DNA from: Conexibacter sp. | GTDB taxonomy: Bacteria; Actinomycetota; Thermoleophilia; Solirubrobacterales; Solirubrobacteraceae | Direction of reading: 5' to 3' | DNA: 15,658 nt | NCBI GenBank assembly: GCA_025964215.1 | Contig: JAOPZG010000180.1 | Span: forward strand, 1-15,658 | Shown here: positions 1 to 14,758 of the stretch, in pieces | Layout of the letters: each line of letters opens with the position of its first letter | Position numbering within the stretch: position 1 is the stretch's first letter | The notes under the pieces: model-generated | What the model saw: the letters and a program-made list of their open reading frames with translations, nothing else | Database searches by the model: none | Told to the model about the DNA's origin: nothing | Program-made: the position numbers and the translations under genes

Positions 1-1
1 C

Positions 2-1030
2 GGCGCCGAGCGAGCGCTGCAGAAGCTCATCGACGCCGAGGTCCGCGTCGTCCCGGTCGGCGAGCGCGTCGACCTGCAGACCGCCGGCGAGCGCTACCTC
101 GTCCACCTCGACCAGGTGATGAACCGCCGGCCGACCACGCTCCAGGACTACACCATCATGTTGCGCAAGCACCTCGTCCCGTTCTTCGGGGGACGGTCGC
201 TGCAGCGCATCGACACCCAGCTGGTCGCCGACTACCTCATCGCCAAGCAGCGCGAGGGCCTGGCGAGCAAGACGGTCGGCAAGCAGCTCACCTTCCTGCA
301 CGGCGTCTTCCGCTACGCCATGAAGAAGGGCTGGACCAACGCCAACCCGGTGGCCGCCGTCGACCGACCGCGTTCGCCCGACAGCGACCCCGACATCCGG
401 TTCCTGACCCACGAGGAGCTCGAAGCCCTCCTACGCGCCGTCGACGACCCCGAGTTCGGCCGGGTCGACTACCCGCTGTTCCTCGTGGCAGCGACGTGCG
501 GCCTGCGACAGGGCGAGTTGGTGGCCTTGCGTTGGCGCGACGTCGACTGGACCGCGGGTGTCATCCGAGTCCGCCGCAACTACACACGAGGCCACTGGGG
601 CACGCCCAAGTCGCGTCGGTCGAGTCGCGCAGTGCCGATGATCAGCCGGACGGCCGGGGCGCTGGACCGGCTGTTCACGTCGTCGCCGCATCAGGCCGAC
701 GACGACCTCGTCTTCGGCCATCCGGAGCTGGGGTCGGTCCTCGACGCGTCGAAGCTGCGCAAGCGGTTCAAGGCCACCCTCGCGGCCGCCGGCGTTCGGC
801 CGGTGCGCTTCCACGACCTGCGGCACACGTTCGGGACCCAGGCCGCGGCGTCAGGGGTGCCGCTCCGGACGCTCCAGGAGTGGATGGGACACCGGGACTA
901 CAAGACGACGCTGATCTACGCCGACTACGCGCCGCGCTCGGAGGAGCGGCAGATGATGGAGCGGGCATTCGCGACGGGGCCGTTGCTCAGCGCCAACGAG
1001 CGAAGCGCCGGGTTCAGCGCCGCGGGCTAG
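2..1030 (+). CDS. Tyrosine recombinase / phage-type integrase (5' partial)
   Basis: Site-specific DNA integrase that would insert or excise the mobile element. The reading frame is open to the left edge, so the N-terminus lies outside the window. An N-terminal SAM-like core-binding domain (from about base 70 to 380) is followed by the catalytic domain. All catalytic positions are visible: Arg in GLRQGEL (codon 506-508), Lys in TPKSRR (608-610), the HDLRH box (His 812-814, Arg 821-823), His in GHRDYK (890-892) and the Tyr nucleophile in LIYADY (917-919). The gene therefore looks intact over the visible part. An internal ATG at 119 is unlikely to be the start because the domain begins before it. 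The next gene is 223 nt downstream. The neighbouring relaxase and Ubl operon suggest an integrative mobilisable element. Confidence 0.93.
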   Translation, partial: GAERALQKLIDAEVRVVPVGERVDLQTAGERYLVHLDQVMNRRPTTLQDYTIMLRKHLVPFFGGRSLQRIDTQLVADYLIAKQREGLASKTVGKQLTFLHGVFRYAMKKGWTNANPVAAVDRPRSPDSDPDIRFLTHEELEALLRAVDDPEFGRVDYPLFLVAATCGLRQGELVALRWRDVDWTAGVIRVRRNYTRGHWGTPKSRRSSRAVPMISRTAGALDRLFTSSPHQADDDLVFGHPELGSVLDASKLRKRFKATLAAAGVRPVRFHDLRHTFGTQAAASGVPLRTLQEWMGHRDYKTTLIYADYAPRSEERQMMERAFATGPLLSANERSAGFSAAG

Positions 1031-1033
1031 GAC

Positions 1034-1069
1034 CCATGCAGCGCGTTTGCAGGAGGCCTCCTGGCATGG
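1034..1069. repeat. Nested inverted repeat just after the integrase
   Basis: A perfect 14-bp palindrome (CAGGAGGCCTCCTG, 1050-1063) is enclosed by a wider CCATGC/GCATGG pair (1034-1039 and 1064-1069). It starts four bases after the integrase stop. It could be a transcription terminator (no T-run follows) or a protein-binding site. The rest of the gap to 1253 holds no gene I can support. Confidence 0.4.
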
Positions 1070-1253
1070 GCCTGCACCTTCGGAAGTGCGAGCATGGCGC
1101 TCTGCACACGAGGTCGTCCGCGCCGGGTGCGACTATCACTGGTTACCAGAATTGAGCCGTATGTTGGGGCGCCCCGGAGAGGCACCCGGCCCGAGAGACT
1201 TACGACTCTCGCATACGCCACAGACGGCATCTCGGCGGAGGCCGTGCAACCGG

Positions 1254-2075
1254 ATGGATCCCAAGGACCAGGACCAAGAGGAAGAAACCCGGTCGCTCCC
1301 GCGCGCCTTTAACGGTCAGCGAGCCCGAGCCGCGCTCGCGTCTCTGATCGAGCCCGCGTCTCACCCGCGGCTCGTGCTCGATGCCGGCCATGTGACAACC
1401 GTCGACGCGTATGCCGGAGCGGTGCTCCGCACCGGGATCGAGGTTCATCTCGCGCGGGACCCCGGGAACAGCATCGTCGTCGCCGAGCCGGAGGCCTCTC
1501 TATGTTGGGCGGCTCTTTACGACCTTCTCGGCGAGTTCCTTCCGCCCCGCTCCTCCTGGGCAGGAAACCGTCCGACCCCCACACGGGGACGCGACATCGT
1601 GCTCCCGGCAACGCCGATCGCCGACGATGAAACGACCGTCCTCCTGACCGACGTGGCGCTGCCCGCTGCAGCGGGTGCGCTGGGGTTCGGCGATCACGCA
1701 CGGCGCCTACTTCAGGAAGCCGCGGCAGCGTTCATCGACAACGCCCGAAAGTACGGCGACGAGAACGCGCCTGTGGGTCCGGTGATTTGCGCTGCGCTTG
1801 AGCCGCAGTCAAACGATCTGCAACTCGTGGTGTGCGATCTGGGATCAGACGCCCCTGCCGACGGCCAGGCCGCGCTGCGCGACGCGGTCTCGCGCAGTCG
1901 CGAGACGCTTGGCGGCATCCAGTCGCTCGTAGCTCTGCGCCGCAACGGGATGGACCTCTCAGTCCGCCTCGCCTTCGGAGCCGGCCGGGCCCACCACCGA
2001 ACACATCGAGCGTGGCGGTTCAGCACCTTCGCGGCCGTCCCGGGCTTCATTGCCGGAGTCGAGATCCATCGGTAG
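1254..2075 (+). CDS. STAS-like plus GHKL ATPase-like protein
   Basis: A 273-aa soluble protein that resembles an anti-sigma-type ATPase. The N-terminal part (about residues 20-90) has a STAS-like pattern (hydrophobic strand LVLDAG, then SIVVAEP). The C-terminal part (about 140-255) resembles the histidine-kinase-like ATPase fold: an N-box IDNARKYG with Asn163, a degenerate G1 box (CDLGSD) and a GGIQSL segment. There is no dimerisation/phosphoacceptor domain, no membrane segment and no sensor domain, so it is not a classical kinase. The residue four before Asn163 is Ala instead of the usual Glu, so ATP hydrolysis is doubtful. The start at 1254 was chosen because the upstream in-frame extension (from 1047) has no domain character; a purine-rich GGCGGAGG lies 12 nt upstream. 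The next gene encodes a STAS-like partner, a pairing seen in other bacteria. The precise role is unknown. Confidence 0.62.
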   Translation: MDPKDQDQEEETRSLPRAFNGQRARAALASLIEPASHPRLVLDAGHVTTVDAYAGAVLRTGIEVHLARDPGNSIVVAEPEASLCWAALYDLLGEFLPPRSSWAGNRPTPTRGRDIVLPATPIADDETTVLLTDVALPAAAGALGFGDHARRLLQEAAAAFIDNARKYGDENAPVGPVICAALEPQSNDLQLVVCDLGSDAPADGQAALRDAVSRSRETLGGIQSLVALRRNGMDLSVRLAFGAGRAHHRTHRAWRFSTFAAVPGFIAGVEIHR

Positions 2076-2127
2076 AAGGCACCAGGCCAGGGAACACCTT
2101 CTGTCAGACACTCGTCTAGAAAGATCC

Positions 2128-2156
2128 CCCTCTCAGGATTCTGCGCTAAGTATGGT
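2128..2156 (+). promoter_or_regulatory. Candidate promoter of the STAS-like gene (leaderless layout)
   Basis: CCCTCT (2128-2133), a 17-bp spacer and TATGGT (2151-2156). The ATG of the next gene lies six bases after the -10-like box, the usual actinobacterial leaderless arrangement, and no Shine-Dalgarno sequence is present. The same CCCTCT-N17-TATRNT layout appears before the Ubl operon. Confidence 0.35.
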
Positions 2157-2162
2157 TCAACT

Positions 2163-2756
2163 ATGTCACTGAACGTCGCACGATACGACCTCGTCCGAGA
2201 CGGACGAGTTCTGGCTACACGTCCCAAAGGACGTGATGCGGGCCGCGCGGCTGCTGAGCGGCTAGCGGAAGCCGACGGCCTGTTGCTGAGCTTCTGGGGC
2301 GTCGACGTGGCCTCTCTGCCGTTCTTGGATGAGGTCATTCGCCAGCTTCGCGCCATGCTCTTCGACGGCGGAAAGCTGCTCGTGGTGACCGGCTTCAACG
2401 AAGACGTGAAGGAGAGCATCGAGATCCTTCTCGCCAAGCACAAGATGACGCTCGCAGCGCTCGAACAGGATCAGATCAGCCTCCTTGGAGGCTCGGCCCA
2501 CCTCAACGAAACGCTGCGTGAAGCCCAGGAGCTACGAGAGTTCACGGCACCGGAGCTTGCCGAGCGCCTATCCATGAAGCTGCCCGCCGTCCACGCTCGG
2601 CTCAATGCATTGGCGGAGGCCGGCGCGATCGCCCGTCAAGACGATCCCACCGCGAAACGCGGCAAGCGCGGCAAATACAGGGTTCCGACACCGGCAGACG
2701 CCGGGAACCTAGCGCCACCACCTACGGCGAAAAAGGTCGAGCCGGTAACCGCCTGA
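2163..2756 (+). CDS. STAS-like (DUF4325-type) protein with C-terminal winged helix
   Basis: A 197-aa protein. Residues about 37-100 show a STAS-like DUF4325 pattern: a strand LLLSFWGVDVASLPFLDEV followed by a second strand KLLVVTGF. Residues about 121-165 look like a winged helix-turn-helix (FTAPELAERLSM, then VHARLNALAEAGAIAR), and the tail is basic then Pro/Ala-rich. The protein probably binds DNA and is switched by its partner, the upstream ATPase-like protein; this is inferred from similar pairs, not shown. The ATG at 2163 was chosen because the domain starts there and a leaderless promoter fits; an alternative in-frame start was not seen nearby. The gap to the ATPase gene is 87 nt, and a strong terminator follows three bases after the stop. 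Confidence 0.62.
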   Translation: MSLNVARYDLVRDGRVLATRPKGRDAGRAAAERLAEADGLLLSFWGVDVASLPFLDEVIRQLRAMLFDGGKLLVVTGFNEDVKESIEILLAKHKMTLAALEQDQISLLGGSAHLNETLREAQELREFTAPELAERLSMKLPAVHARLNALAEAGAIARQDDPTAKRGKRGKYRVPTPADAGNLAPPPTAKKVEPVTA

Positions 2757-2758
2757 TC

Positions 2759-2784
2759 GAGGGCCCCGCGAAAGCGGGGCCCTC
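2759..2784 (+). terminator. Rho-independent-like terminator of the ATPase/STAS module
   Basis: A perfect stem (AGGGCCCCGC / GCGGGGCCCT, extended by one G-C pair) with a GAAA tetraloop, followed by TTCCGTT. It begins just after the STAS-like gene stop and separates this unit from the Ubl operon. Confidence 0.8.
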
Positions 2785-2808
2785 TTCCGTTACTGGTCGC
2801 GCTATACT
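2780..2808 (+). promoter_or_regulatory. Candidate promoter of the Ubl operon
   Basis: The -10-like box TATACT (2803-2808) lies 37 nt before the modifier ATG. The sequence 17 bp upstream is CCCTCT (2780-2785), as in the promoter before the STAS-like gene, but here it overlaps the terminator's right arm. The -10 is credible; the -35 is tentative. Confidence 0.4.
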
Positions 2809-2818
2809 TCAGTGAAGT
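2806..2818. promoter_or_regulatory. Perfect palindrome overlapping the Ubl promoter -10
   Basis: ACTTCA-G-TGAAGT, a perfect 6+1+6 inverted repeat that overlaps the end of the TATACT box and the expected transcription start. This is a typical place for a repressor operator. The binding protein is unknown; the winged-helix STAS protein just upstream is one candidate (inference). Confidence 0.35.
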
Positions 2819-2844
2819 TGTTGAACTCTCTTTGGAGGAACCCC

Positions 2845-3144
2845 ATGTCCCAGACCGATCAACCCTCGAGCCACATCGCTACCGACGACAGTCGCGGGCA
2901 CGGTCCCAAGCCGAAGCCCACGACGATCCACGTCAACGAGAAGCGCGTCCACATGCCCGACGACCACGCCACGGGTCTGCAGATCAAGCAGCACGCCATC
3001 TCCGAGGGCCTGAACATCCAGGTCGACTTCGAGCTCGTCGAAGAGCTCGAGAACGGCCGCACGAAGAACGTCGGCAACGACGATGAGGTCAAGCTCAAGG
3101 AAACGAGTCGCTTCCTTGCCAACGACGGCGACGAGAACTCCTGA
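2845..3144 (+). CDS. Ubiquitin-like modifier (multiubiquitin-family domain)
   Basis: A 99-aa protein with one ubiquitin-like (beta-grasp) domain at about residues 26-91. It matches the multiubiquitin pattern: IHVNEKRVHMP strand pair, TGLQIKQHA helix, DFELVEE strand, then DDEVKLKETSRF. The first 25 residues are polar and likely disordered. The start at 2845 is fixed by GGAGG at 2834-2838, six bases upstream; an earlier GTG at 2812 lies inside the promoter palindrome. Unlike eukaryotic ubiquitin it does not end in Gly-Gly; it ends ANDGDENS, with Gly95 four residues from the end, so trimming by the JAB domain encoded two genes downstream is possible. It would be adenylated by the E1 domain and attached to targets or to itself. 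The E2 gene starts two bases after the stop. Confidence 0.82.
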   Translation: MSQTDQPSSHIATDDSRGHGPKPKPTTIHVNEKRVHMPDDHATGLQIKQHAISEGLNIQVDFELVEELENGRTKNVGNDDEVKLKETSRFLANDGDENS

Positions 3145-3146
3145 CC

Positions 3147-3563
3147 ATGACCCCCGACGTCGAGAAGGGCATCGCCGAGATCCAGCACGCATTCGCCGGT
3201 CATGGCGTCGAGACCGTCGAGACCGGCGATGGTGGCGCCTACGTCATCGTCGCCGATCTGGACCTCGGCCCAGCGTTTGTGCCGAGGTCCAGCTGGATCG
3301 GCTTCACGCTCCCCTACAACTACCCCCTTGCGGACGTCTATCCGCACTTCGCCTGCCCCGATCTCGCGACCGCAGACGGCACGCCGCTCCCAACGCCCCC
3401 GCTGAACAGCGGCCAGAGTATGCCCGGCTTCAATCGCCCCGCGACGATGGTGTCGCGTCGCTCACCCCGGTGGAATCCCGCGCACGACACCGCGGCGCTG
3501 AAGCTCATGCGCATCATCGGGTGGTTCGCCGAGCAGGCCGCACAGACGAGGGCAGCCGCATGA
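3147..3563 (+). CDS. E2-like ubiquitin-conjugating protein (prokaryotic E2 family E type)
   Basis: A 138-aa protein with a UBC/E2-like layout: a strand WIGFTLPYNYPL (residues 50-61), the E2-typical YPxxxP segment ending YPHFACPD (65-72), then SRRSPRWNP (103-111) and a C-terminal helix. It would receive the modifier from the E1 and transfer it. The order Ubl-E2-JAB/E1 with near-zero gaps identifies it as firmly as its sequence does. The only cysteine is Cys70, in the strand before the expected catalytic loop. Counting back eight residues from Trp109, as in classical E2s, gives Met101, not Cys, so the catalytic residue is unclear. It starts two bases after the modifier stop, with no strong ribosome site, which suggests translational coupling. 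Its stop overlaps the next ATG (ATGA). Confidence 0.75.
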   Translation: MTPDVEKGIAEIQHAFAGHGVETVETGDGGAYVIVADLDLGPAFVPRSSWIGFTLPYNYPLADVYPHFACPDLATADGTPLPTPPLNSGQSMPGFNRPATMVSRRSPRWNPAHDTAALKLMRIIGWFAEQAAQTRAAA

Positions 3564-5038
3564 AGCCTCGGCCGCAGTTCCTGCCCGCTAGTGCAGAGGC
3601 GGAGGCTTGGCAGCTCGTTCTGCCTGAGGAACTAGCCGACGCGCTCGACGCCCACCTGTTCCCCGGTGACGAGGACGAGCACGGCGCCGTCATCAGCGCC
3701 GGGATGGTCCGAACCTCCCGCGGCGTGCGCCTCCTGGCCCGTGAGCTGTTCGTAGCGTCCGACGGCGTGGATTTTGTGCCTGGGCGCAAGGCCTACCGGC
3801 GCCTCACTCCGCAGTTCGTCAACGATCACATCCGACACTGCCGCGACGAGCGCCTCGTGTACTTGGCTGTCCACAACCACCACGGTCATGGCTCAGTCGG
3901 GTTCTCCGAGCCTGATCTCCGGTCGCACGAGCGCGGCTACCCCGCACTGCTGGACATCGCCAAGGGCATGCCGGTCGGCGCACTCGTCCTCGCGCATGGC
4001 GCGCTCGCCGGCGACATCTGGACACCCGAGGGAACTCGACACCCGATCGGCGAGACGGTCATTCTCCGCCGCAACGTCGAGCGGATCTACCCACTGCCGG
4101 CCGCTGCACCGCCCGACCGCGCCGAGATCGACGATCGCCAGGCCCGTGTGTACGGCAACGCCGGACAAGATCTGCTCGGACGCCTCAAGGTCGGCGTCAT
4201 CGGCGCTGGCGGAGTCGGCCTGCCGATCGTTGCCTTCCTCGCCCGGCTCGGCGTCGGACATCTTGTCGTGATCGATCCCGAACGCGTCGAGATCACCAAC
4301 TTGCCCCGTCTGCCGGAGAGCACCCGCCGCGATGCGATGTCGTGGCTGACGACACCAGGGCGACCGCTCGCCCTACAACGGCTCGGCGGTCGTCTGGCCA
4401 CACCGAAGGTCCGGCTGGCCAAGCGGGTCGCGCGGCGGGCGCGAAAGAACTCGATCGTCGACGCGGTCCGCGGCGACATCGCGGACGTCGATGTGGCGCA
4501 GCAGTTGATCGACTGCGACTACCTCTTCCTCGCGGCCGATACCCATACGGCCCGCTCCATCTTCAACGCTCTGGTCCACCAGTACCTCGTCCCAGGCGTG
4601 CAGGTCGGAAGCCACGTGGCCGTCGGCGGCGACGGCGATATCGGCAAGATCGCCTCGGTTCTGCGACCGGTGACGCCCGATGGCGGTTGCTTGTGGTGCA
4701 ACGAGTTGATCCGGCCCGACAAGCTGACTGACGAGTCGTTGCCAGCGGCGGTCCGGCGCGCGCAGCGCTACTTGCCGATGGAAGACGCGCCAGCTCCGAG
4801 CGTCATCACGCTCAACGCACGCGGCGTCGCGGACGCGACCGACCACTTCATGTTGGCCGTCACCGGACTTCTTGAATCGTCCGAGACCAATGGCGATTTC
4901 CGCCGCTACGAGACACGCGCCGACAAGCTGCGCACCAGCATTCCCCGCCGATCCCCCGACTGCAGAGAATGCGGCACCCACGCCTCTTCGATCCGCGCCC
5001 GCGGCGACGGCGCCCGGCTACCAGTCCGCGGCGCCTGA
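3560..5038 (+). CDS. JAB/JAMM peptidase - E1-like ThiF adenylyltransferase fusion
   Basis: A 492-aa two-domain enzyme. Residues about 20-165 are a JAB (JAMM) metallopeptidase: Glu40 in the EDEHGA segment, His105-Asn-His107, and Ser116-Glu-Pro-Asp119 as the SxxD box. This domain would trim the modifier or cleave it from targets. Residues about 190-475 are an E1/ThiF Rossmann domain: nucleotide loop GAGGVG (215-220), Asp239 in IDPERVEITNL, and Asp327 in LAADTHTAR. Two CxxC pairs (Cys377/380 and Cys468/471) likely bind structural zinc. The segment PAPSVITLN has Ser414 where many E1-like proteins carry the catalytic Cys; the only other E1 cysteine, Cys319, lies in a core strand. The start at 3560 overlaps the E2 stop (ATGA) and has GAGGG seven bases upstream. 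Confidence 0.9.
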   Translation: MKPRPQFLPASAEAEAWQLVLPEELADALDAHLFPGDEDEHGAVISAGMVRTSRGVRLLARELFVASDGVDFVPGRKAYRRLTPQFVNDHIRHCRDERLVYLAVHNHHGHGSVGFSEPDLRSHERGYPALLDIAKGMPVGALVLAHGALAGDIWTPEGTRHPIGETVILRRNVERIYPLPAAAPPDRAEIDDRQARVYGNAGQDLLGRLKVGVIGAGGVGLPIVAFLARLGVGHLVVIDPERVEITNLPRLPESTRRDAMSWLTTPGRPLALQRLGGRLATPKVRLAKRVARRARKNSIVDAVRGDIADVDVAQQLIDCDYLFLAADTHTARSIFNALVHQYLVPGVQVGSHVAVGGDGDIGKIASVLRPVTPDGGCLWCNELIRPDKLTDESLPAAVRRAQRYLPMEDAPAPSVITLNARGVADATDHFMLAVTGLLESSETNGDFRRYETRADKLRTSIPRRSPDCRECGTHASSIRARGDGARLPVRGA

Positions 5039-5053
5039 TCGCCGACCCTTCTG

Positions 5054-5082
5054 TCTGACGACACAGGAGGCCGTCGTCCAGA
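5054..5082. repeat. Inverted repeat between the Ubl operon and the relaxase gene
   Basis: TCTGACGAC (5054-5062) pairs with GTCGTCCAGA (5073-5082) with one bulged G, around a 10-nt loop. No T-run follows. It may be the Ubl operon terminator, or part of an oriT, since MobF origins usually lie beside the relaxase gene. I could not recognise a nic consensus in 5039-5219. Confidence 0.35.
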
Positions 5083-5219
5083 TCAGTCCGACACACCGTC
5101 TGCGACTCCGGCTGACAGTGCCCTTCACCGTTTCCGTGACCCGCACCACAATGACCAGCACACATCTGCATTCTCCGAATGGCCCGAGGGTGATCCCGTC
5201 CGCTCGTCGACTAAGGGAC

Positions 5220-6044
5220 GTGCTCTCGATCGGCAAGGTCGGCGGCGGACAGGGCGATCCGCGCTACTACATCGACAACGTCGCCGCCGGCAAGGACGAC
5301 TACTACGCCGGCCACGGCGAGGCCCAAGGCCAGTGGGAAGGCCGCGGTGCCGAAGGCCGCGGGCTGACCGGTGGCGTCGAAGACGAGCAGTTCCTCGGCC
5401 TCCTCACCGAGCCCAGCACGACAGCCACCAGACCGAAGACGGTCTTGGCCTATGACTTGACGTTCTCCGCGCCGAAGTCGGTCTCGGTCATCTACGGCAT
5501 CGGTGATCGCACCGTCTCCCCCGTCGTCCGCGCCGCCCACGACGAGGCGGTGCGAGAGGCGCTCGGCTACCTCGAACGCCACGCCACGTGGACGCGCCGC
5601 GGCGCCAATGGCAAGCATCTGCTCCGCGGCGACGGCCTCACGGTCGCCGCGTTTCGTCATCGCACCTCGCGTGCCGGCGATCCGCAGTTGCACACCCACG
5701 CCGTCGTCGCCAACACGACCACCGCCGAGGGCCGGGAGACAGCGCTCGACGGCCGCGCCCTCTACGCCCACCAGCGGACCGCCGGATTCCTCTATCAAGC
5801 GGCGCTGCGCAGGAGCCTCACCGAGACGCTTGGCGTGGAGTGGGAGCCCGTCCGCAACGGCGCGGCCGAGATCAGCGGCATCGACGACCAGGTGCTCAAG
5901 CACTTCTCCCGCCGCAGCCAGGAGATCCGCGAGCGGCTCGGGCAGCTCGGCGCCCGGTCGGCCCGTGCGGCGGAGGTCGCCGCGTTGGAGACCCGCCGGG
6001 CCAAGGACTACAACGTGTCGACCGACCGACTCCGGCAGGAGTGA
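5220..6044 (+). CDS. MobF (TrwC/TraA-type) relaxase domain, cut short by an in-frame TGA
   Basis: A 274-aa N-terminal relaxase portion. It would nick oriT and stay bound to the transferred strand. The family's opening LSIGK...GQ...YY is present from residue 2, with tyrosines 16/17 and 28/29 (YYIDNV, DDYYAGHGEA), the segment LTFSAPKSVSV, and the three metal-binding histidines (His147 in FRHRTSR, His158 and His160 in LHTHAVV). I chose GTG at 5220 because family members start with MLSIGK; upstream in-frame ATG 5151 and GTG 5190 also exist. The frame stops at TGA 6042-6044, but the same frame continues without a shift into the helicase half. The full-length ancestor would be about 960 aa, so this is a broken or two-part gene. 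Confidence 0.85.
   Translation: MLSIGKVGGGQGDPRYYIDNVAAGKDDYYAGHGEAQGQWEGRGAEGRGLTGGVEDEQFLGLLTEPSTTATRPKTVLAYDLTFSAPKSVSVIYGIGDRTVSPVVRAAHDEAVREALGYLERHATWTRRGANGKHLLRGDGLTVAAFRHRTSRAGDPQLHTHAVVANTTTAEGRETALDGRALYAHQRTAGFLYQAALRRSLTETLGVEWEPVRNGAAEISGIDDQVLKHFSRRSQEIRERLGQLGARSARAAEVAALETRRAKDYNVSTDRLRQE
6042..6044 (+). other. In-frame TGA splitting the relaxase-helicase gene
   Basis: The frame reads ...LRQE-stop-RARAAELGLDRR... with coding-like sequence directly on both sides and no frame change. A single G-to-A change of a TGG (Trp) codon would explain it. The next base is C, the context in which UGA readthrough is most frequent, so a little full-length protein might still be made (inference). 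Confidence 0.75.
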
Positions 6045-6080
6045 CGAGCGCGCGCCGCGGAGCTCGGTCTCGATCGTCGG

Positions 6081-8102
6081 GTGCTCGACCTCGTCCTCGA
6101 TCGCCGGCGTCCCGGACCCGCGCTCGAACCAGATCTCCGCGCCGTCGCCGACGACCTTGGCGCGCCCGGCGGGATCACCGAGCGGGCGTCGACCTTCGAC
6201 CGCCGCGACGTTCTCCGCGACTGGGCCGAGGCCCACCGCGAGGGCGCGAGCGTCGAGCGGCTCGAAGCGCTGGCCGACCACTGGCTGGCGTCCCCGCAGG
6301 CCGTCCAGCTCGAACGGGACGGGAGTCGCCCGCAGCTCGGCGGCGCTCGATACTCGACGCCTGAGATGCTGGCGGTGGAGGACCGGGTCCTGACCGAGGC
6401 CGCTCGCCGCCAGGACGCAGGAGTGGCCCAGCTGGACGCGACCAGGGTCGACGACCTGCTCGCGACCCGGAGCGACATCGCGGACGAGCAGGCCGCGATG
6501 GCGCGCTCGCTGACGACCTCCGGCGACGGCGTGCAGATCGTTCGCGCAGCGGCGGGCACCGGCAAGACGCGAGGACTCACCGCCGCGCGAGACGCCTGGG
6601 AAGCCGACGGCGTGCGCGTCTTCGGGTGCGCGCTGGCCGCACGCGCCGCGGTCGAGATGGAGACGCTCGCGGGCATCGACAGCACGACGATCGCTCGCTT
6701 GCTCGTCGACATCGACCAAGGCAATGGCCTTGCTCCGGGTTCGGTGCTGGTCGTCGATGAGGCCGGCATGGTCGGCTCGCGCACGATCGACCGGCTCGCC
6801 CAGCACGCCACCAACACGAAATCCAAGCTCGTCCTCGTCGGCGACGACCGCCAGCTCCCGGAGATCGATGCCGGCGGCGCGTTCCGGCGGCTCGCGCGGG
6901 ACCTCGGAGCGATCGAGCTGCACCAGGTCCACCGCCAGGCGGAGACGTGGGATCGCGAGGCTCTCGCGCAACTACGGCAGGGCCAGGTCCAGACATGGAG
7001 CGAGGCGTACCGCGATCACGGGCGCCTCGTCGCCCGGCCGACCGCCGACGAGCTGCGTGCGACGCTGGTCGAGGACTGGTGGGAGGCGGCCCGCCGACCC
7101 GATGCCGGCGACGCGGTCATGATCGCCCACCGGCGTTCCGACGTCGCCGACCTCAACGCGCTGGCCCGTGAGCGCATGGACCGTGACGGCCGGCTCGGCG
7201 CAGAGGAGCTGATCACCGACAGGCGAGCGTTCGCGGTCGGCGACCGCGTGATCGCCCGCCGCAACGACCGCCGCGCGGGCGTCGTCAACGGCACCCGCGC
7301 CGAAGTTGTTGGTGTTGACCTGGAGCGTCGCACCGTGGCGCTCCGCACGGCGGACGGCGGTGGACGCGAACTCGACTCGTTCTATCTGGACGACGGCTGG
7401 CTGGACCATGCCTATGCGTTGACGGCCCACGCCGCCCAGGGCGCGACGGTCGACCGGTCCTTCGTCCTCGGCTCCGACGAGCTGTACCGCGAGTGGGGCT
7501 ACACCGCGATGAGCCGCCACCGCGATCAGGCGCGCTTCTACGTGGTCTCGCCCGGCTCCGTCGAGCGGGCGCTGCCCGGCCTCGAACCCGAACACGACAC
7601 CCTCACCGAGGACGTCGCGGCGATGGTCTCGTCGAGCCGCCAGCAGGAACTCGCCCTCGACTTGCTCAATCGCACGGGAGCTGGCGCCGCCGAGCGAGCC
7701 GTGCGACGGGCCCACGACGAGATTGAGCGAGCACAGCAGCGCATCGTGGCGATGCATGAGGAGCGAGCGAACCTCGGACTGCTGCAGCGCTCCCGCCGCG
7801 CGGCGGTCGACGAGGACATCGCTCGCCAGCAGGAGGCCATCGAGCGATGGACTGACCAGGCTGCCGCAGCCCGCGAGCCCGAAGTGCCCGCCCGCCACGA
7901 AGCTCCGCCGGTCGTCGCCGACCCACACGAGGCCCGTCTCGCGCTCGTCGCCCGCGATCAGGTCCTCGGCGAGCGGCCGTCGAGCTTCGTGGCACGCGAG
8001 GCCTGGGCTCGCGAAGCCGCGCAGCTCGTCGGCGCCGGCGCGCCGACGCTGGATCCACCGACCCGCCACATCGGCGCCGACGACTTGGGCATGGACCTCT
8101 AG
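6081..8102 (+). CDS. TraA/TrwC-type helicase portion (RecD-like superfamily 1), second half of split relaxase
   Basis: A 673-aa helicase portion that would unwind DNA during conjugal transfer. Walker A AAGTGKT lies at about residues 158-164 (Lys162), Walker B VVDEAG at 224-229 (Asp226, Glu227), followed by GDDRQLPEIDAGG and a C-terminal motif ALTAHAAQGATVDRS, then YTAMSRHRDQARFYVV, all typical of RecD-like/TraA helicases. The last 130 residues are charged and helical, likely coiled coil. GTG 6081 is only a candidate start; the frame is open back to the TGA at 6042-6044, and coding character begins immediately after it, so this is best read as the C-terminal half of the upstream relaxase. The stop lies seven bases from the stop of a converging gene. 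Confidence 0.85.
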   Translation: MLDLVLDRRRPGPALEPDLRAVADDLGAPGGITERASTFDRRDVLRDWAEAHREGASVERLEALADHWLASPQAVQLERDGSRPQLGGARYSTPEMLAVEDRVLTEAARRQDAGVAQLDATRVDDLLATRSDIADEQAAMARSLTTSGDGVQIVRAAAGTGKTRGLTAARDAWEADGVRVFGCALAARAAVEMETLAGIDSTTIARLLVDIDQGNGLAPGSVLVVDEAGMVGSRTIDRLAQHATNTKSKLVLVGDDRQLPEIDAGGAFRRLARDLGAIELHQVHRQAETWDREALAQLRQGQVQTWSEAYRDHGRLVARPTADELRATLVEDWWEAARRPDAGDAVMIAHRRSDVADLNALARERMDRDGRLGAEELITDRRAFAVGDRVIARRNDRRAGVVNGTRAEVVGVDLERRTVALRTADGGGRELDSFYLDDGWLDHAYALTAHAAQGATVDRSFVLGSDELYREWGYTAMSRHRDQARFYVVSPGSVERALPGLEPEHDTLTEDVAAMVSSSRQQELALDLLNRTGAGAAERAVRRAHDEIERAQQRIVAMHEERANLGLLQRSRRAAVDEDIARQQEAIERWTDQAAAAREPEVPARHEAPPVVADPHEARLALVARDQVLGERPSSFVAREAWAREAAQLVGAGAPTLDPPTRHIGADDLGMDL

Positions 8103-8109
8103 CGGCCTC

Positions 8110-8478
8110 CTAGATGACGTCGCTCGGCGGCGGCGGCGCGCCGCCCAGGCTGTCCCGCAGCTCGATCAGCTCGCGAGCCAAGGCGAGCTGGCTCTCGTAC
8201 TGCGCGACGCCCTCCAACGTGTGCGGCATCTTCACCGGCTCCTCCCACTCGATCGCGCCCGGGATCAGCGCAAGCGCAACGCCGCGCGTCAGGCTCTCGT
8301 GCTCGAAGGCGTCGATGAAATGGACCGCGGCGATCGCCGCGTCACGCGCGTCCGGCCCGAAGGCCATGTCGCACGCCTCTTCGAGCATGCGCGCTGCGGT
8401 CGCGCGCAGCAGCTCGCGCAGGTGGTCGGGGATGCCGACGGGATCATCGTCAGACGGGATAGCGTCTGAGGTGTCCAT
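8110..8478 (-). CDS. Hypothetical 122-aa protein
   Basis: I do not recognise this family. The protein is acidic and mostly helical in appearance, with no membrane segment; a helix with DHLRELLRATAARMLEEA is near the N-terminus, and the C-terminus is proline-rich (GGAPPPPSDVI). The start (ATG at 8476-8478) is supported by AAGGAG (8489-8494) ten bases upstream. A longer in-frame upstream extension lacks protein character. It converges on the helicase gene with seven bases between the stops, and is the last gene before the tRNA, so it probably belongs to the mobile element. Confidence 0.65.
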   Translation of the reverse strand: MDTSDAIPSDDDPVGIPDHLRELLRATAARMLEEACDMAFGPDARDAAIAAVHFIDAFEHESLTRGVALALIPGAIEWEEPVKMPHTLEGVAQYESQLALARELIELRDSLGGAPPPPSDVI

Positions 8479-8543
8479 GGAGTTCACGCTCCTTGGGCCA
8501 TGCCCCCGGCCGTTAGCGCGGCGCGGGGGCGCATTTTTAGTTG

Positions 8544-8563
8544 TCGGAGAGAGACCTCTCCGA
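8544..8563. repeat. Inverted repeat TCGGAGAG / CTCTCCGA
   Basis: Perfect 8-bp arms with a 4-nt spacer, 66 nt upstream of the reverse-strand hypothetical gene. It may be an operator or part of an element boundary; no T-run supports a terminator. Bases 8565-8715 hold nothing else I can identify. Confidence 0.35.
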
Positions 8564-8717
8564 ACCCTGTAGGACGCGAGGACCCAGAACTCGCCCCCTG
8601 CGAGTACGACAACGGACGTGGTGTTCCGCTCCGTCCGGCGCGCAGGTAGCGTTTCAACCACCAACTGAGTCCCAAAACGAGACCACGCCGCGCCGCCGAA
8701 CCGTCCCGTTAAGCACG

Positions 8718-8740
8718 AAAACCCCCTGGCGAGAGGGGGC
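8718..8740 (-). terminator. Terminator of tRNA-fMet
   Basis: Read on the minus strand: CCCCCT, six-base loop, AGGGGG, then TTTTC, starting nine bases after the tRNA 3' end. This is a classic intrinsic terminator. Confidence 0.85.
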
Positions 8741-8748
8741 TTCCGTAG

Positions 8749-8822
<74 letters not shown>

Positions 8823-8833
8823 GCGGTCGGAGG

Positions 8834-8863
8834 AGTGTAGCGAATGTGTCGTCTCCGAACGGT
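8834..8863 (-). promoter_or_regulatory. Candidate promoter of tRNA-fMet
   Basis: On the minus strand, TACACT (8839-8834) ends 11 bases before the tRNA 5' end. A weak ACCGTT (8863-8858) lies 18 bp upstream. The -10 is convincing, the -35 is not. Confidence 0.4.
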
Positions 8864-8873
8864 CGCGGTCGGG

Positions 8874-9182
8874 TCATGCGCGGTCGCGTCCGCGGCGGAG
8901 GCAGGTGATGGCCAACCAACGGCCAGGGGCGTCCGTGCGGGCCAGCGGGAACGCCAGGTCGCCGCTGATCGCCCACAGCGCCGCGGGCTTGTCGGAGACG
9001 GCCCACGCGGGCGGCCAGTGGGTGATGTCGGCGTCCTCCAGCACCCGGAGCAACCCGGCGATCACGTCGTCGAGGCCGGGCACGCGGATCGGCATCCGCT
9101 CGCGGTAGCGCGCCACGCAGTGGTCGCTCGGCACGATCTCGGGGGCCTGCGGATCTCCGGTGCGTGCCGTGCCCACGAACAT
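8874..9182 (-). CDS. Hypothetical 102-aa protein
   Basis: I do not recognise a family. Visible features are a basic-acidic segment SDHCVARYRERMPIR at about residues 20-34, a helix DDVIAGLLRVLEDADI, and an aromatic core THWPPAW...LWAISGDLAFPLA. It ends in a basic tail (RRGRDRA). There is no signal peptide or membrane segment. The ATG at 9180-9182 gives a protein without low-quality extension, but no clear ribosome site is seen. It is divergent from the dehydrogenase gene, with only 31 bases between the starts. The longer frame reaching 9431 is antisense to the dehydrogenase and was not used. Confidence 0.6.
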   Translation of the reverse strand: MFVGTARTGDPQAPEIVPSDHCVARYRERMPIRVPGLDDVIAGLLRVLEDADITHWPPAWAVSDKPAALWAISGDLAFPLARTDAPGRWLAITCLRRGRDRA

Positions 9183-9213
9183 TGCCGTGCAGCGTGGCAG
9201 GATCCCTGACGCC

Positions 9214-10149
9214 ATGGCCCACGTCTTCGTCTCCCGCGCGCTGACCGGCGACGCGCTCGACCGCCTCACCGACGCGGGGCACGACGTCGACGTCTGGCCC
9301 GGCAACCTCCCGCCCCACCCCACCGAGCTGCGGGAGCGCGTCGCGCACGCCCACGGCCTGCTCGCGATGCTGACCGAGCGGATCGACACCGCCCTCCTCG
9401 ACGCGGCGCCCCAACTCAAGGTCATTGCCAACTACGCCGTCGGCTTCGACAACATCGACATGGAGGCCATCACAGCGCGCGGGATCGCCGTCGGCGTCAC
9501 GCCCGACGTCCTCACCGACGCCACCGCGGACCTCGCCTTCGCCCTCCTGCTGGCCGCCGCCCGCCGCCTCGCCGAGGCGCAGCGCGCCGTCCGCGACGGC
9601 CGCTGGCGGACCTTCGAGCCCCAGGGCTGGCTCGGCGCCGACGTCCACGGCGCGACGCTCGTCATCGTCGGCGGCACCGGGCGGATCGGGCAGGCGGTCG
9701 CTCGCCGCGCCGCCGGGTTCGACATGAACATCATCTCGCTCGGCCGCGACGGCGACCTCCACCAAGCCCTGCAACACGCCGACTTCGTCTCGCTCCACGC
9801 GCCGCTCACGCCGCAGACCCGCCACCTGATCGACGACGCCGCCCTGCACGCGATCAAGCCCGGCGCGATCCTCGTCAACACCGGCCGCGGCGGGCTCGTC
9901 GACCAGCCGGCGCTCGCCCGCGCGCTCCAGGACGGCCGCCTCGCCGCCGCCGCCCTCGACGTCACCGACCCCGAGCCGCTCCCCGCCGACGACCCGCTCC
10001 TCGACGCCCCCAACCTGCTCGTCGTCCCGCACATCGGCTCGGCGACGCGCACCACGCGCGGCCGGATGGTGCACATGGCCGTCGACAACCTCCTCGCGGG
10101 GCTCGCCGGCGATCCGCTTCCGCACCCGGCGCCCGTCCCGCGGAAGTAG
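9214..10149 (+). CDS. D-2-hydroxyacid dehydrogenase (glyoxylate/hydroxypyruvate reductase-like)
   Basis: A 311-aa cytosolic NAD(P)H-dependent oxidoreductase that interconverts 2-keto acids and D-2-hydroxy acids. The N-terminal substrate-binding half (1-100 plus the C-terminus) contains the NYAVGFDNID segment. The central Rossmann domain has VGGTGRIGQA (GxGxxG; usual family form GLGRIG). The catalytic triad is complete: Arg225 in NTGRGG, Glu254 in DPEPLP and His273 in PHIGSAT. The length fits the glyoxylate reductase (GyaR/GhrB) branch. The ATG at 9214 was preferred over GTG 9160 because the conserved first strand MAHVFVSRAL starts there. The Ppx gene follows after nine bases, probably co-transcribed. 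The exact substrate cannot be read from sequence. Confidence 0.92.
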   Translation: MAHVFVSRALTGDALDRLTDAGHDVDVWPGNLPPHPTELRERVAHAHGLLAMLTERIDTALLDAAPQLKVIANYAVGFDNIDMEAITARGIAVGVTPDVLTDATADLAFALLLAAARRLAEAQRAVRDGRWRTFEPQGWLGADVHGATLVIVGGTGRIGQAVARRAAGFDMNIISLGRDGDLHQALQHADFVSLHAPLTPQTRHLIDDAALHAIKPGAILVNTGRGGLVDQPALARALQDGRLAAAALDVTDPEPLPADDPLLDAPNLLVVPHIGSATRTTRGRMVHMAVDNLLAGLAGDPLPHPAPVPRK

Positions 10150-10152
10150 CCT
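10147..10152 (+). promoter_or_regulatory. Possible -10 box for leaderless Ppx transcript
   Basis: TAGCCT begins with the dehydrogenase stop codon and ends six bases before the Ppx GTG, matching the TANNNT-N6-RTG leaderless pattern. A possible ribosome site GGAAG lies 12 bases away, so read-through expression is equally possible. Confidence 0.22.
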
Positions 10153-10158
10153 CGCCCC

Positions 10159-11112
10159 GTGCGCATCGCCGTCATCGACATCGGGACCAACTCGACCCGC
10201 CTCCTGATCGCGGACGTCACGCGAGACGGCCGCGTCACGGAGCTCGAGCGGCGCACGACCGTCACGCGCCTCGGCCAGGGCGTCGACCACACCGGCGAGC
10301 TGCAACCCGAGGCGATGGCGCGCGTGTACGCGGCGCTCGACACCTACAAGAAGCTGATCGACGACCACGACGTCGAGGCGACGACCGGCGTGCTCACCTC
10401 CGCCGTCCGTGACGCGCGCAACGGAGCCCAGTTCACCACGACGGTCAACGACCGCTACGCCATCGGCGCGCGCACGATCAGCGGCGACGAGGAGGCGCGC
10501 CTGACCTACCTCGGGGCGACGAGCGACCGCACCGACAACGCCACCGCCGACACGCGCCGCGTCGTCATCGACGTCGGCGGCGGCTCCACCGAGCTCGTCG
10601 CCGGCCACGGCACCACGGTCGACTTCCACGTCTCCACGCAGGCCGGCGTCGTCCGCCAGACCGAGCGCTTCATCCGCTCCGACCCGCCGCGCGCGGAGGA
10701 GCTGCAACTGCTGCAACAAGAGGCGGCGGAGATCTTCGAGCAGGCGGTCCCACAGCAAGAGCGCGACCGCGTCACCCAGGGCATCGCCGTCGCCGGCACC
10801 GCGACCTCCTGCGCCGCGATCCTGCAGGAGCTCGACCCCTACGACCCCGCGAAGGTCCACGGCTTCCGCCTGCTCCGCGCCCAGGCCGAGATGCTCCTCG
10901 CGCGGCTCGCGGACCTGACGCTCGAGGAGCGCCGTCACGTCACCGGCCTGCACCCCGACCGCGCGCCCGCGATCGTCGCCGGCGTGATCCTGCTCGTCGA
11001 GGCGATGCGGACCTTCGACCTGGACGAGGTCGAGGTCTCCGAGCACGACATCCTGCGCGGAGCGGCGCTGGATCGGGCAGGAACTACAGGCGGCGGGACG
11101 GGCGAGGGCTGA
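10159..11112 (+). CDS. Ppx/GppA-family exopolyphosphatase / pppGpp phosphatase
   Basis: A 317-aa enzyme of the ASKHA fold that releases phosphate from the end of polyphosphate or from pppGpp. The N-terminal phosphate-binding loop IDIGTNSTRLLIAD is at residues 6-19, the conserved SGDEEA box at 108-113, and the second phosphate loop DVGGGSTEL at 138-146, with Glu145 in the expected catalytic place. A third loop AVAGTATS follows. The length matches the short actinobacterial form (like mycobacterial Ppx1) without the C-terminal HD domain of the E. coli enzymes. GTG at 10159 puts the first conserved strand (MRIAVIDIG) at the N-terminus. It lies nine bases after the dehydrogenase gene. Polyphosphate versus pppGpp preference cannot be decided here. 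Confidence 0.93.
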   Translation: MRIAVIDIGTNSTRLLIADVTRDGRVTELERRTTVTRLGQGVDHTGELQPEAMARVYAALDTYKKLIDDHDVEATTGVLTSAVRDARNGAQFTTTVNDRYAIGARTISGDEEARLTYLGATSDRTDNATADTRRVVIDVGGGSTELVAGHGTTVDFHVSTQAGVVRQTERFIRSDPPRAEELQLLQQEAAEIFEQAVPQQERDRVTQGIAVAGTATSCAAILQELDPYDPAKVHGFRLLRAQAEMLLARLADLTLEERRHVTGLHPDRAPAIVAGVILLVEAMRTFDLDEVEVSEHDILRGAALDRAGTTGGGTGEG

Positions 11113-11130
11113 GGAACACGCCCGCCCCGC
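11093..11130 (+). terminator. Hairpin at the end of the Ppx gene
   Basis: GCGGGACGGGCG (11093-11104) pairs with CGCCCGCCCCGC (11119-11130) with one mismatch and a 14-nt loop spanning the stop codon. There is no T-run, so the terminator role is tentative. Confidence 0.35.
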
Positions 11131-11562
11131 TCGCGCTGGCGACGGGGTCGAGCAAGGCGAACAGCGCCCCACCTCCCAGTTTCGCCGCACAGCGGTTGTA
11201 CCTCGCATCCCCACTTCTCGGAACGTCCCTGGACGGGTGTCTGATTGTGGGCCTCTGGGCCCCGCCGGATACTCCGAGAGGTCGGGTCAACGGGTGTGCG
11301 TGCCGAACAGGCTCGTTCGTCCGCTGTTCCGACGCATAGGTCCGAGCGAAGCCGCATCGAATCGGCGCCTCCCGCCGCTCGGGCCAGACAATCAGGCCCC
11401 CGCAAGGCACGTACCCCTGCCCGTCCTGTCGGGGCCGAGTTAGGAAGCCGCTCTTCGGGGCGGCTTCCGACTTTCGCGAGCTCCCGGCGGGACCCGACGT
11501 CGCACCGGAAAGCACGGGCCTTCTTCTTGCCGGAAGACGGTCCATCGCCGCCCCGAGCGCCG
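11131..11562. other. Gene-free stretch between convergent genes
   Basis: No protein or known RNA is supported here. Reading frames that cross it are extensions of frames antisense to the flanking genes. It holds the hairpin at 11443-11468 and a small GGGCC/GGCCC hairpin near 11258-11271. I looked for tRNA, RNase P, tmRNA and SRP RNA signatures by eye and saw none. Confidence 0.5.
11443..11468. terminator. UUCG-tetraloop hairpin between convergent genes
   Basis: GGAAGCCGC (11443-11451) pairs perfectly with GCGGCTTCC (11460-11468). Two more pairs (T-G, C-G) close a TTCG tetraloop on the plus strand. There is no long T-run on either side. It is probably a terminator between the Ppx gene and the oppositely oriented ThDP enzyme gene, or the end of an unknown small RNA. 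Confidence 0.5.
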
Positions 11563-13209
11563 CTATGCCAGGTTCGACTTCCGCGGGTAGATCACGTCGG
11601 GATCCGTGAGCACGTTGACGAGCGCCGGACGGCCCGCCTCGAAGGCCCGCGCGAGCGCCGGCTTGAGGTCCTCGGGCGTCCGGACGAGCTCGCCGTGGCC
11701 GCCCAGCGCCTCGACCATCTGGTCGTAGCGCGTCTCCGGCCGCAGCTCCGCGGCGACCGAGTACCCGTACAAGAACTCCATCGGGTGCTTCTCGAGCGCC
11801 CAGATCCCGTTGTTGCCCATCACCGCGACGACGTTCACGCCGTGGCGCGCGAGCGTGTCGAACTCCATCCCGCTGAAGCCGAAGGCGCCGTCGCCGACGA
11901 GCAGGACGACCTGGCGGTCGGGGTGCGCGAGCTTCGCGGCCAGCGCGTAGCCCGGCCCGGTGCCGAGGCAGCCGAACGGCCCCGGGTCGAGCCAGCAGCC
12001 CGGCTCGTAGGTGTCGATGACGCGCCCGGCGTAGGAGACGAAGTCGCCGCCGTCGCCGATGACGATCGCGTTGCGGTCGAGGACGTCGCTGAGCTCGCGG
12101 TAGAGCCGCATCGGGTGCAACGGGGCGCGGCCGTCGTCGAGCTCGACCCGCTCGGCCTCGCGCTTCTCGACCTCCTTGCCGCGCAGGTGCGCGACCCAGT
12201 CCCGCGTCCGCTCCGCCCCACCGTCGTCGCCGACCAGCGCGCGCAGCGTCGCGTCGATCCCGCCGTACAGGGAGACCTCGACCTCCCGCGGGTGCGCGCG
12301 CGCGGGCTCGGCCCGATCGATGACCACCAACTTGGTGTCCTCGCCGAACGAGCCGCCGAAGCCGAGGCGGAAGTCCATCGGGACGCCGATGACCAGCGCG
12401 AGGTCCGCGCCCTTCAGCCCATCCCCTCGTGCACGCGAGAAGAAGAGCTCGTGGTCGGCCGGCAGGCAGCCGCGCGCCTGGCCGTTCAAGTACACGGGGA
12501 TGCCCCGCGCCTCGGCCAGCTCGCGCAGCGCGTGCTCGCCGCGGCCCCAGTAGAGGTTCGTGCCGGCCATGATCACCGGGCGCTCGGCTGCGTCGAGCAG
12601 CGCGATCACGCGGTCGACGTCGCCGCCGGCGACCGGCTCGGCCAGGACGTCGTGCAGCGCGCCCTCCACACCCGTGTCTTCCCCCTCGGAGAAGACGTGG
12701 TCCATCGGGAAGTCCAGGAACGTCGGCCCCGAGTGCGGCGCCATCGCGGTCGCGAGCGCCTGGTCGACCAGCCCCGGGATCTCGTCGGGCGAGCCCGCGG
12801 TGGCGGCCAGCTTCGTGAGCGGCGCGACGAACGGGACGTGGTCGATCTCCTGCAGCGAGCCCATCCCCCAGCGCATCGCCGGCGCGCGGCCGCCGAGCAC
12901 GACGATCGGCGAGGCGGACTGCTGCGCGCTCGCGATCGCGCTCATCCCGTTGGTGACGCCCGGCCCCGCGGTCAGCGCGGCGACGCCCGGCGTGCGCGTG
13001 ACCTTCGCCCAGCCCTCGGCGGCGAACGTCGCGGCCTGCTCGTGGCGGGTGTCGACGATGTCGATCCCCTCCTCGCGGCAGCCGTCGTAGATCGAGAAGA
13101 TGTGCCCGCCCGAGAGCGTGAACAGCTTCGTGACGCCGTGGGCCTTCAGGCGGCGGGCGATCAGGCGCCCCCCGTGGAGGCGCGTGGCCTGCTCCGTCTC
13201 GGTGCTCAT
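11563..13209 (-). CDS. Thiamine-diphosphate-dependent enzyme, acetolactate synthase-like
   Basis: A 548-aa enzyme of the acetolactate synthase / 2-hydroxyacyl-CoA lyase / benzoylformate decarboxylase superfamily, which makes or breaks carbon-carbon bonds next to a keto group. Domains run in the usual order: N-terminal Pyr domain with the cofactor-activating Glu57 (DTRHEQAA) and AGPGVTNG; central domain (about 195-330); C-terminal PP domain with the ThDP/Mg motif GDG (439-441) to NN (466-467). The start at 13209 has GAGGA nine bases upstream; a longer frame to 13263 adds a low-quality basic leader. There is no regulatory small subunit or other branched-chain amino-acid gene beside it, so a catabolic or 2-hydroxyacyl-CoA lyase-like role is as likely as acetolactate synthesis. 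It is convergent with the Ppx gene. Confidence 0.9.
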
Positions 13210-13395
13210 CGCCCGACATCCTCGCCGCCGGGCGCCCGTCGCGCCAGCCCGCAGGTCATACAACGCGCCGCCGCATCTTCAGAGGCTTCCTATGAAGGTC
13301 ACCCGCATGGGTGTCCGTCTGACAGCGCCGGGTTGCAATCGGCCGCGATGAGCGTAGAACGGAAGGAGAAGGCACCCGATGAGGAGAGGAGTCCT

Positions 13396-13584
13396 ATGGA
13401 CGCCCGCTTCGAGAAGGACCTGCCGGCCGCGCAGGAGCAGAGCCTGCCCACCCGTCGCTTCGCGGCCATCGCCGCCGAGCAGGACGCGACCTACCCCATG
13501 CTGGCGCCCGCGGCGGCGCTGCACGTGGGCCAGGAGGGTGACGCCTACGACGAGCAGATCCTCGCCGGCCTCGTGAACATCTAG
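13396..13584 (+). CDS. Hypothetical 62-aa protein
   Basis: A small acidic protein of unknown function. The first half is charged (MDARFEKDLPAAQEQ), the middle reads LPTRRFAAIAAEQDATYPML, and the end is DAYDEQILAGLVNI. There are no cysteines, membrane segment or signal peptide. The start at ATG 13396 is supported by the purine-rich GAGGAGAGGAG just upstream; an in-frame ATG at 13348 has no ribosome site. G/C third positions agree with neighbouring genes. A strong terminator hairpin follows 23 bases after the stop, which favours a real transcribed unit. The gene is divergent from the ThDP enzyme gene. Confidence 0.6.
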   Translation: MDARFEKDLPAAQEQSLPTRRFAAIAAEQDATYPMLAPAAALHVGQEGDAYDEQILAGLVNI

Positions 13585-13607
13585 GCCGACATCTAGAGAA
13601 CGCCTAC

Positions 13608-14591: not shown

Positions 14592-14607
14592 GAAGCTCGA
14601 GTGGGGC

Positions 14608-14641: not shown

Positions 14642-14659
14642 GAGCCCTGCTGTGCGCCA

Positions 14660-14744: not shown

Positions 14745-14758
14745 GGGGTCTTGCGCCC

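Follow-up and report, generated by a model that had tools for sequence, protein, structure and literature searches.

The window analysed here is a stretch of 15,658 nucleotides from an uncultured Conexibacter sp. (GenBank assembly GCA_025964215.1, contig JAOPZG010000180.1, positions 1–15,658, forward strand). It carries an operon of the Bub (bacterial ubiquitination-like) family, encoding a ubiquitin-like modifier (Ubl), an E2-like protein and a JAB-E1 fusion, as cargo of an integrative mobilizable element in a tRNA-Met gene. Most of this operon has already been described; its distinctive part is a modifier that ends in serine, together with a change at one position of the E1. With moderate confidence, the locus is read as a damage-induced Bub-type conjugation operon that probably acts on its serine-ended modifier without thioesters. 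A CapS-like repressor would keep the operon silent until DNA damage activates a CapK-like protein. The JAB-E1 fusion would then adenylate the C-terminal Ser of the modifier, which would be handed on, most likely without a thioester, via Ser103 of the E2-like protein to a target protein, and the JAB half would take the modifier off again. The homologies of the three proteins, their intact active-site residues, the lack of an invariant catalytic-type Cys, the conserved Ser tail and the mobile element are observed; control of the operon, the transfer step, the target and any part in defence are inferred.

Identification of the operon genes

The Ubl, E2-like and JAB-E1 genes follow each other on the (+) strand (Table 1) with a 2-nt gap and then an ATGA overlap at 3560–3563; this tight packing, described in an earlier note made from the sequence alone, was confirmed from the open reading frames (ORFs). 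All three frames are open, and their active-site residues are intact. The modifier (99 amino acids) consists of a leader of about 26 residues, a single beta-grasp domain and the C-terminus ...NDGDENS. It scored 31.9 bits against Pfam Multi_ubiq (PF14452), over the cut-off of 24.5, and the Ubl profile matched the solved structure 9cd2 (E 3.9e-6), placing 2845–3144 in a ubiquitin-like family as the earlier note had proposed. The E2-like protein (138 amino acids) reached 14 bits with Pfam Prok-E2_E, under the cut-off of 25, but its assignment was upheld by a profile built from eight relatives, which finds the solved Citrobacter BubB (9eae_C). For the fusion (492 amino acids), the E1 half gave 80.1 bits with Pfam ThiF, and residues 17–431 align with solved Citrobacter BubCD (9ea4). 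No Pfam JAB model matched the fusion protein at E ≤ 1; the JAB half was identified because of the BubCD alignment and the conservation of its JAMM residues (see below). Thus, of the profiles that the earlier note had suggested searching, Multi_ubiq and ThiF matched, whereas Prok-E2_E stayed under its cut-off and JAB found nothing. PADLOC and NCBIfam had no match for the Ubl or the E2-like protein and cover just part of the E1, the best stretches of the PADLOC E1-E2 models being about 35–60 residues long. In its gene content, the operon is typical of the described Bub family, and its proposed regulation and its mobility fit the known picture.

Of 7,993 scored candidate proteins, 3,639 matched the fusion protein. 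The clade set of 87 loci used below comprises 80 loci from a scan of species genomes (the best 80 of 120), six plasmid loci and the window. Locus L092, inferred to be the same stretch as L013, was excluded from the 87; the count of tails and cysteines still included it (88 loci), no Ubl being found in L092. A tree of the 87 with 12 distant Bub E1s was built by a quick method and rooted at the midpoint; some of the distant E1s were flagged for their long branches. In it, the 87 group at SH-aLRT 100 on a long branch (1.95). The sister of the window is L013 (support 97), a locus in a metagenome-assembled genome of the Thermoleophilia. This serine-tail subclade of Bub operons is well supported and spans many phyla: Actinomycetota, Pseudomonadota, Cyanobacteriota, Chloroflexota, Acidobacteriota, Verrucomicrobiota, Nitrospirota, Gemmatimonadota, Planctomycetota and others.

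A modifier that ends in serine

Ser is the last residue in 81 of the 83 clade Ubls (loci with a detected Ubl), and the tail is exactly DDNS in 73. The modifier of the window ends in DENS, which occurs once; the other Ser tails are DDHS (3), EDNS (2), EDDS and DNNS (1 each). Asn is penultimate in 77 of the 81. The two misses are L047, with the tail DDTSWR, and L080, where the Ubl frame ends early. The loci in which no Ubl was detected (L037, L057, L058 and L061) are all truncated near a contig end, and the Ubl played no part in locus selection. All six Ser codons are used at the terminal position (TCG 24, TCC 24, TCA 18, AGC 11, AGT 2 and TCT 2), and the Ubl stop overlaps the next start as ATGA in 11 of 81 loci; the tail is therefore conserved as protein.

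Distant Bub Ubls have Gly at the predicted end in 10 of 11 cases, where this Gly is the C-terminus itself, marks the point at which a fused protein passes into its E2 part (placed by eye) or, in L115, lies three residues before the end. Left out of the 11 were L112 and L113, where the E1 barely matches, and L120, for which no Ubl is annotated. Crystallised Citrobacter BubA constructs stop at that Gly. A distant Bub-like operon of Rhodococcus (L123, 1892–3970) has the Ubl tail RQSAQVA, which is neither Gly nor DDNS. To our knowledge, a C-terminal glycine is common to all conjugated ubiquitin-like proteins; the usual explanation is the narrow channel through which their tail has to pass in E1, E2 and deconjugase. 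The single Ubl domain that the earlier note had singled out is present but not unusual, as 53 of the 83 relatives measure at most 140 amino acids from the first Met (with one, L031, mis-measured).

Active-site residues of the E2-like protein and the JAB-E1 fusion

The E2-like gene was found in 85 of the 87 loci, the remaining two (L037 and L057) being truncated at a contig end. Ser103 is invariant in all 85 and in 4/4 distant proteins, and it aligns with the Ser of WSRH in Citrobacter-type BubB. Among the columns conserved in at least 94% of the sequences (n = 85), there is no Cys, and Cys70 of the window protein is unconserved. Oxyester intermediates have reportedly been described for Bub (Ye 2026).

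In the fusion protein, the JAMM residues Glu40, His105, His107, Ser116 and Asp119 are kept in 87/87 clade loci and 4/4 distant E1s. The adenylation residues Arg193, Arg250, Lys283 and Asp327, which we take to be equivalent to Arg14, Arg73, Lys86 and Asp130 of MoeB, are kept in 87/87 loci, the last three also in 4/4 distant E1s; conservation in the E1 stretches RGYPAL... and FLAAD... is partly by construction, as these were locus search patterns and Asp327 falls within one of them. Cys377, Cys380, Cys468 and Cys471 are near-invariant (86 loci each), and their CxxC pairing suggests that they are zinc-type. The other cysteines of the window E1 are Cys94 in the JAB half (56/87) and Cys319 in the adenylation half (70/87). 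A canonical thioester cascade was considered and thought unlikely, given an E2 with no conserved Cys and an E1 in which the four zinc-type Cys are the only near-invariant ones. Canonical conjugation chemistry in general appears unlikely for a modifier lacking a terminal Gly and enzymes lacking an invariant catalytic-type Cys.

At residue 348 of the E1, 84 of the 87 loci have Gln and the other 3 Glu; in the distant Bub E1s it is Asp (12/12). This change hints at a re-tuned E1, as a correlation arising from a single event and no proof. The subclade as a whole might, although we hold this to be somewhat doubtful, be a widespread branch whose modifier is made with its DDNS end already in place and is activated and conjugated via that Ser, residue 348 of the E1 having been re-tuned and no step passing through a Cys intermediate. 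Ser414 of the E1 was also examined as a universal catalytic Ser; the idea was appealing in 32 homologs and was rejected, the residue being Ala in 4/4 distant E1s. Solved BubCD and two distant E1s carry Ser at this position.

The upstream CapK-like and CapS-like genes

Two genes precede the operon, and neither they nor the serine-ended tail had been remarked upon in the earlier note. The protein encoded by the second tests as a STAS-wHTH regulator. Comparison of profiles linked it to known CapS; a separate profile match at E 2.1e-9 is inflated, that profile having been iterated. Plain BLAST against known CapS gave nothing, Foldseek gave no match at E ≤ 0.001, and nothing relevant was found among solved structures; the CapS link comes from the profile comparison only. 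A second look at 50 Foldseek rows gave two STAS domains, winged helices making up most of the rest. Ser51 is at least 90% conserved in 72 sequences.

The CapK-like protein has a STAS-like N-terminal half, although its STAS_2 match is weak (E 0.13), and a putative kinase half recognised by motif. Asn163 is invariant (7/7). The Foldseek matches ranked 1–9 were STAS domains or transporters that carry one, none of them at E ≤ 0.001 (best 0.011). The structure model had a confidence (pLDDT) of 51.6, with most of the kinase half below 50, and identification as CapK by structure was dropped because the model was too weak. Read from the ATG at 1254, the protein has no N-terminal HTH.

Of 65 relatives, 42 have an ImmA/IrrE (CapP-like) gene on the upstream side, and 3 of 75 have one downstream; these loci include three (L002, L003 and L007) from which the profile was seeded. 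Because of the CapS-like/CapK-like pair here and the ImmA/IrrE genes upstream of relatives, control of the damage type is proposed for the operon. At L006, L008 and L123, toxin-antitoxin genes (HigA with RelE/ParE, RES with Xre) occupy the regulator position. On an Escherichia coli IncHI2 plasmid (L089, 851–3769), the CapS whose accession Chambers 2026 gives precedes a Bub operon, and an IS3-like element lies between the CapS gene and the coding sequence (CDS) upstream of it.

Between the CapS-like gene and the operon, a hairpin that may be a terminator was seen by inspection and was not listed by the terminator scan. A perfect palindrome follows as a possible operator; it is weak evidence, such palindromes occurring at 3.2 per kb across the window. 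The sigma-70 promoter scan found 0 sites, with 0.4 expected.

The integrative element and its distribution

As the earlier note had surmised, the operon sits on a mobile element of this high-GC actinobacterium, bounded by attachment (att) repeats at tRNA-Met. The element measures about 9.3 kb from repeat to repeat (9,333 bases between anchors) and continues onto a second contig, C194, which has an identical 113-base overlap with the window and ends with the N-terminal part of the integrase. Its order is a small HTH-like frame (on C194, recognised by eye), integrase, CapK-like gene, CapS-like gene, Bub operon, TrwC relaxase and helicase. An in-frame stop at 6042–6044 separates relaxase from helicase; the transfer gene may be naturally split here, or its decay may have begun.

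Six other genomes of the same genus were compared, three of them closely. In these three, the right flank is conserved (76–82%) to the tRNA region and no further, homology ending at 8714, 8715 and 8747, and close to this tRNA genome G228 carries a related integrase (66%). These observations make the tRNA-Met region a probable integration hotspot. The tRNA of G272 has beside it a 71% match to 306 bases of the C194 side, the repeat among them. This hints at an unoccupied site; no clean empty site was found in the same-genus genomes compared. A sequence of about 66 bases lies at about 899–965 of C194 (genome G000) and at 8473–8540 of the window, close to the element's right end; many further copies are scattered through the same-genus genomes.

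The distribution of the operon is rare and patchy, as expected for mobile cargo. Close relatives (E ≤ 1e-60) occur in 2 of 299 genomes of the class of the window, and its phylum has Multi_ubiq matches in 7 of 346, its own genome being counted in both. The phylum scan also gave two loci (L112 and L113) with Multi_ubiq genes beside the barely matching E1s mentioned above, possibly another operon type. Among 72,556 plasmid records, 124 matched. A phage or viral context was rejected: no relative matched in 50,697 phage records, and 33 pattern matches in viral contigs included none encoding a relative. No DUF6527/zinc-finger gene was found in the 87 clade loci, 75 of the 86 non-window loci offering at least 2.5 kb downstream; the 4 distant loci that the DUF6527 profile matched are its own seeds.

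Table 1. Features of the operon, its regulators and the integrative element (positions in the window)
Feature	Position	Strand	Basis or remark
Tyrosine integrase, cut by contig start	2..1030	+	Pfam Phage_integrase, E 5.3e-30
CapK-like protein	1254..2075	+	N-terminal half resembles STAS; kinase half assigned from motif only
CapS-like STAS-wHTH transcription regulator	2163..2756	+	profile comparison to known CapS
Hairpin, possible terminator	2760..2783	+	by inspection, 3' of CapS-like gene; 10-bp arms, 4-base loop
Perfect palindrome ACTTCAGTGAAGT, possible operator	2806..2818		5' of Ubl gene
BubA-type modifier	2845..3144	+	Multi_ubiq PF14452, residues 27–87, E 1.5e-7
BubB-type E2/UBC-like protein	3147..3563	+	profile match to 9eae_C, E 9.3e-8; Ser103 invariant, no conserved Cys
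BubCD-type JAB-E1 fusion	3560..5038	+	matches solved 9ea4, E 8.7e-21
TrwC-type relaxase, GTG start	5220..6044	+	PF08751, E 9.7e-76 on longer ORF 4872–6044
TraI-type helicase	6081..8102	+	AAA_30, E 8.9e-53; same frame as relaxase
Attachment-site repeat, 83 bases	8709..8791		other copy at C194 656–738, 82/83 bases equal
tRNA-Met, integration target	8748..8822	-	overlapped by attachment repeat

Alternative explanations

The DDNS tail might be a pro-peptide that the JAB half trims off, the true conjugated end lying upstream. The JAMM residues are intact, distant fusions have Gly followed by an E2 part at a junction that the JAB half is presumed to cut, and the crystallised constructs end at this Gly. 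However, no conserved Gly precedes the tail in the clade (e.g. AIPNDDNS and TAPDDNS), conservation sits in the last four residues, which would be unexpected for a discarded tail, and the gene stops directly after Ser in 81/83. We therefore regard trimming as unlikely. It would be more surprising still if the E1 modified the C-terminus of the modifier itself, in the manner of MccB, without forming protein conjugates. MccB acts on a peptide ending in asparagine and is among the solved E1 relatives matched, and the near-constant penultimate Asn would suit such an activity, but this Asn is replaced by His in three tails and by Asp in one, and the E2-like gene that accompanies almost every locus would, like the JAB half, have no place in such chemistry; this reading is highly improbable. 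Least credible of all is a sulfur-carrier pathway of the ThiS/MoaD with ThiF/MoeB kind. The E1 domain is of the ThiF type, but the modifier has no terminal GG, the E1 is fused to JAB and, of the solved structures, it matches BubCD best rather than ThiF. The 26 window ORFs that were scanned include no thiamine- or molybdopterin-making gene; a thiamine-diphosphate-using enzyme at 11563–13263 lies outside the element. Neither observation that the earlier note had named as fatal to its proposal was made. Finally, the element could be inactive and the operon decayed cargo that is passively kept. The stop in the relaxase-helicase frame and the fragmentary assembly (674 contigs, 65% complete) lend this some colour, but none of the three operon frames is interrupted, their active-site residues are intact, and the integrase and both att copies are present; we consider it improbable.

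Several points weigh against the damage-induced, thioester-free conjugation that we favour, which is a reading of sequences. Cys319, present in the window as well as in 70/87 loci, could still carry a thioester in this E1. The Ser end and residue 348, and likewise the missing DUF6527 gene, mark one clade and hence one event, and are not independent of each other. The position of Ser414 is Ser, Ala or Asn in further distant E1s. On the regulatory side, the CapK-like protein had no HATPase match in the profile search, and its profile fails to match the annotated CDS upstream of known capS, a CDS that itself has weak HTH and HATPase matches; moreover, Ser54, the phosphorylated residue of known CapS, aligns with Pro53 here, the conserved Ser being Ser51.

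A serine-ended modifier with an accompanying change in the E1 would surprise specialists, unless it is already contained in Ye 2026 or Gong 2025. If true, a natural serine-ended branch would test the glycine-end rule directly, would show how the active sites of E1 and JAB adapt and might offer protein engineers a new tag. With its few genes, the operon would also lend itself to deciding between phage defence and DNA-damage stress as the role of Bub, a question left open by Chambers 2026 (PMC13373217).

Comparison with known systems

The earlier note had called the targets and function of this branch poorly known, which needs correcting in that the branch carries the name Bub and has solved structures and, judging by their titles, a mechanism paper (Ye 2026) and a Ubl structure paper (Gong 2025). 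In Chambers 2026 (PMC13373217), where the family is named, 544 operons are counted, adjoined by CapW or CapH plus CapP at 219 and by CapK plus CapS at 59; when the search was widened, a Bub operon followed 231 of 443 capK-capS pairs. CapK plus CapS is described there as the DNA-damage switch of other Bub operons, and Bub is stated there not to have been shown to protect against phage. The window agrees with this description in having two genes in the same order before a Bub operon, with a CapS-like STAS-wHTH protein. Known CapK is an HTH-STAS-GHKL kinase; the window differs in that its CapK-like protein, read from 1254, lacks the N-terminal HTH and has a putative kinase domain, and in that the phosphoserine position of its CapS-like protein is out of register.

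The first depiction of this operon type is row 6e of Table 1 in Iyer 2006 (PMC1779556), the polyUbl operon, which comprises a Ubl of one to three domains, a JAB-E1 fusion, an E2/RWD-like protein without cysteine and a further zinc-finger-like gene, and is known from actinobacteria. The window shares the Ubl type, the Cys-less E2/RWD-like fold and the JAB in front of the E1, but the extra gene of that row was not found. The DUF6527/zinc-finger gene is given there for many row 6e operons and is not stated to be universal; its absence sets the window apart from many Bub and 6e operons.

The anti-phage Bil operon has Ubl, E2, JAB and E1 components as the window does, but its JAB (BilC) is separate (PMC11354881), its E1 (BilD) has a Cys domain and its E2 is a Cys enzyme, whereas the JAB of the window is fused to the E1. 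With Citrobacter Bub (structures 9ea4, 9ea8, 9eae and 9eav), the window has in common a Ubl, an E2-like protein with invariant Ser and a JAB-E1 fusion; unlike in Citrobacter-type Bub, its Ubl and E2 are separate genes and its E1 has zinc-type Cys, whose first pair also occurs in other distant Bub E1s. Unlike distant Bub, its Ubl ends in Ser and not Gly, and Gln348 replaces Asp. From classical ubiquitin-like conjugation, the operon stands apart in a modifier that ends in DENS, with no terminal Gly. As for the catalytic cysteines of that chemistry, the E2 has no conserved Cys, and the E1 has Cys319 as a possible candidate.

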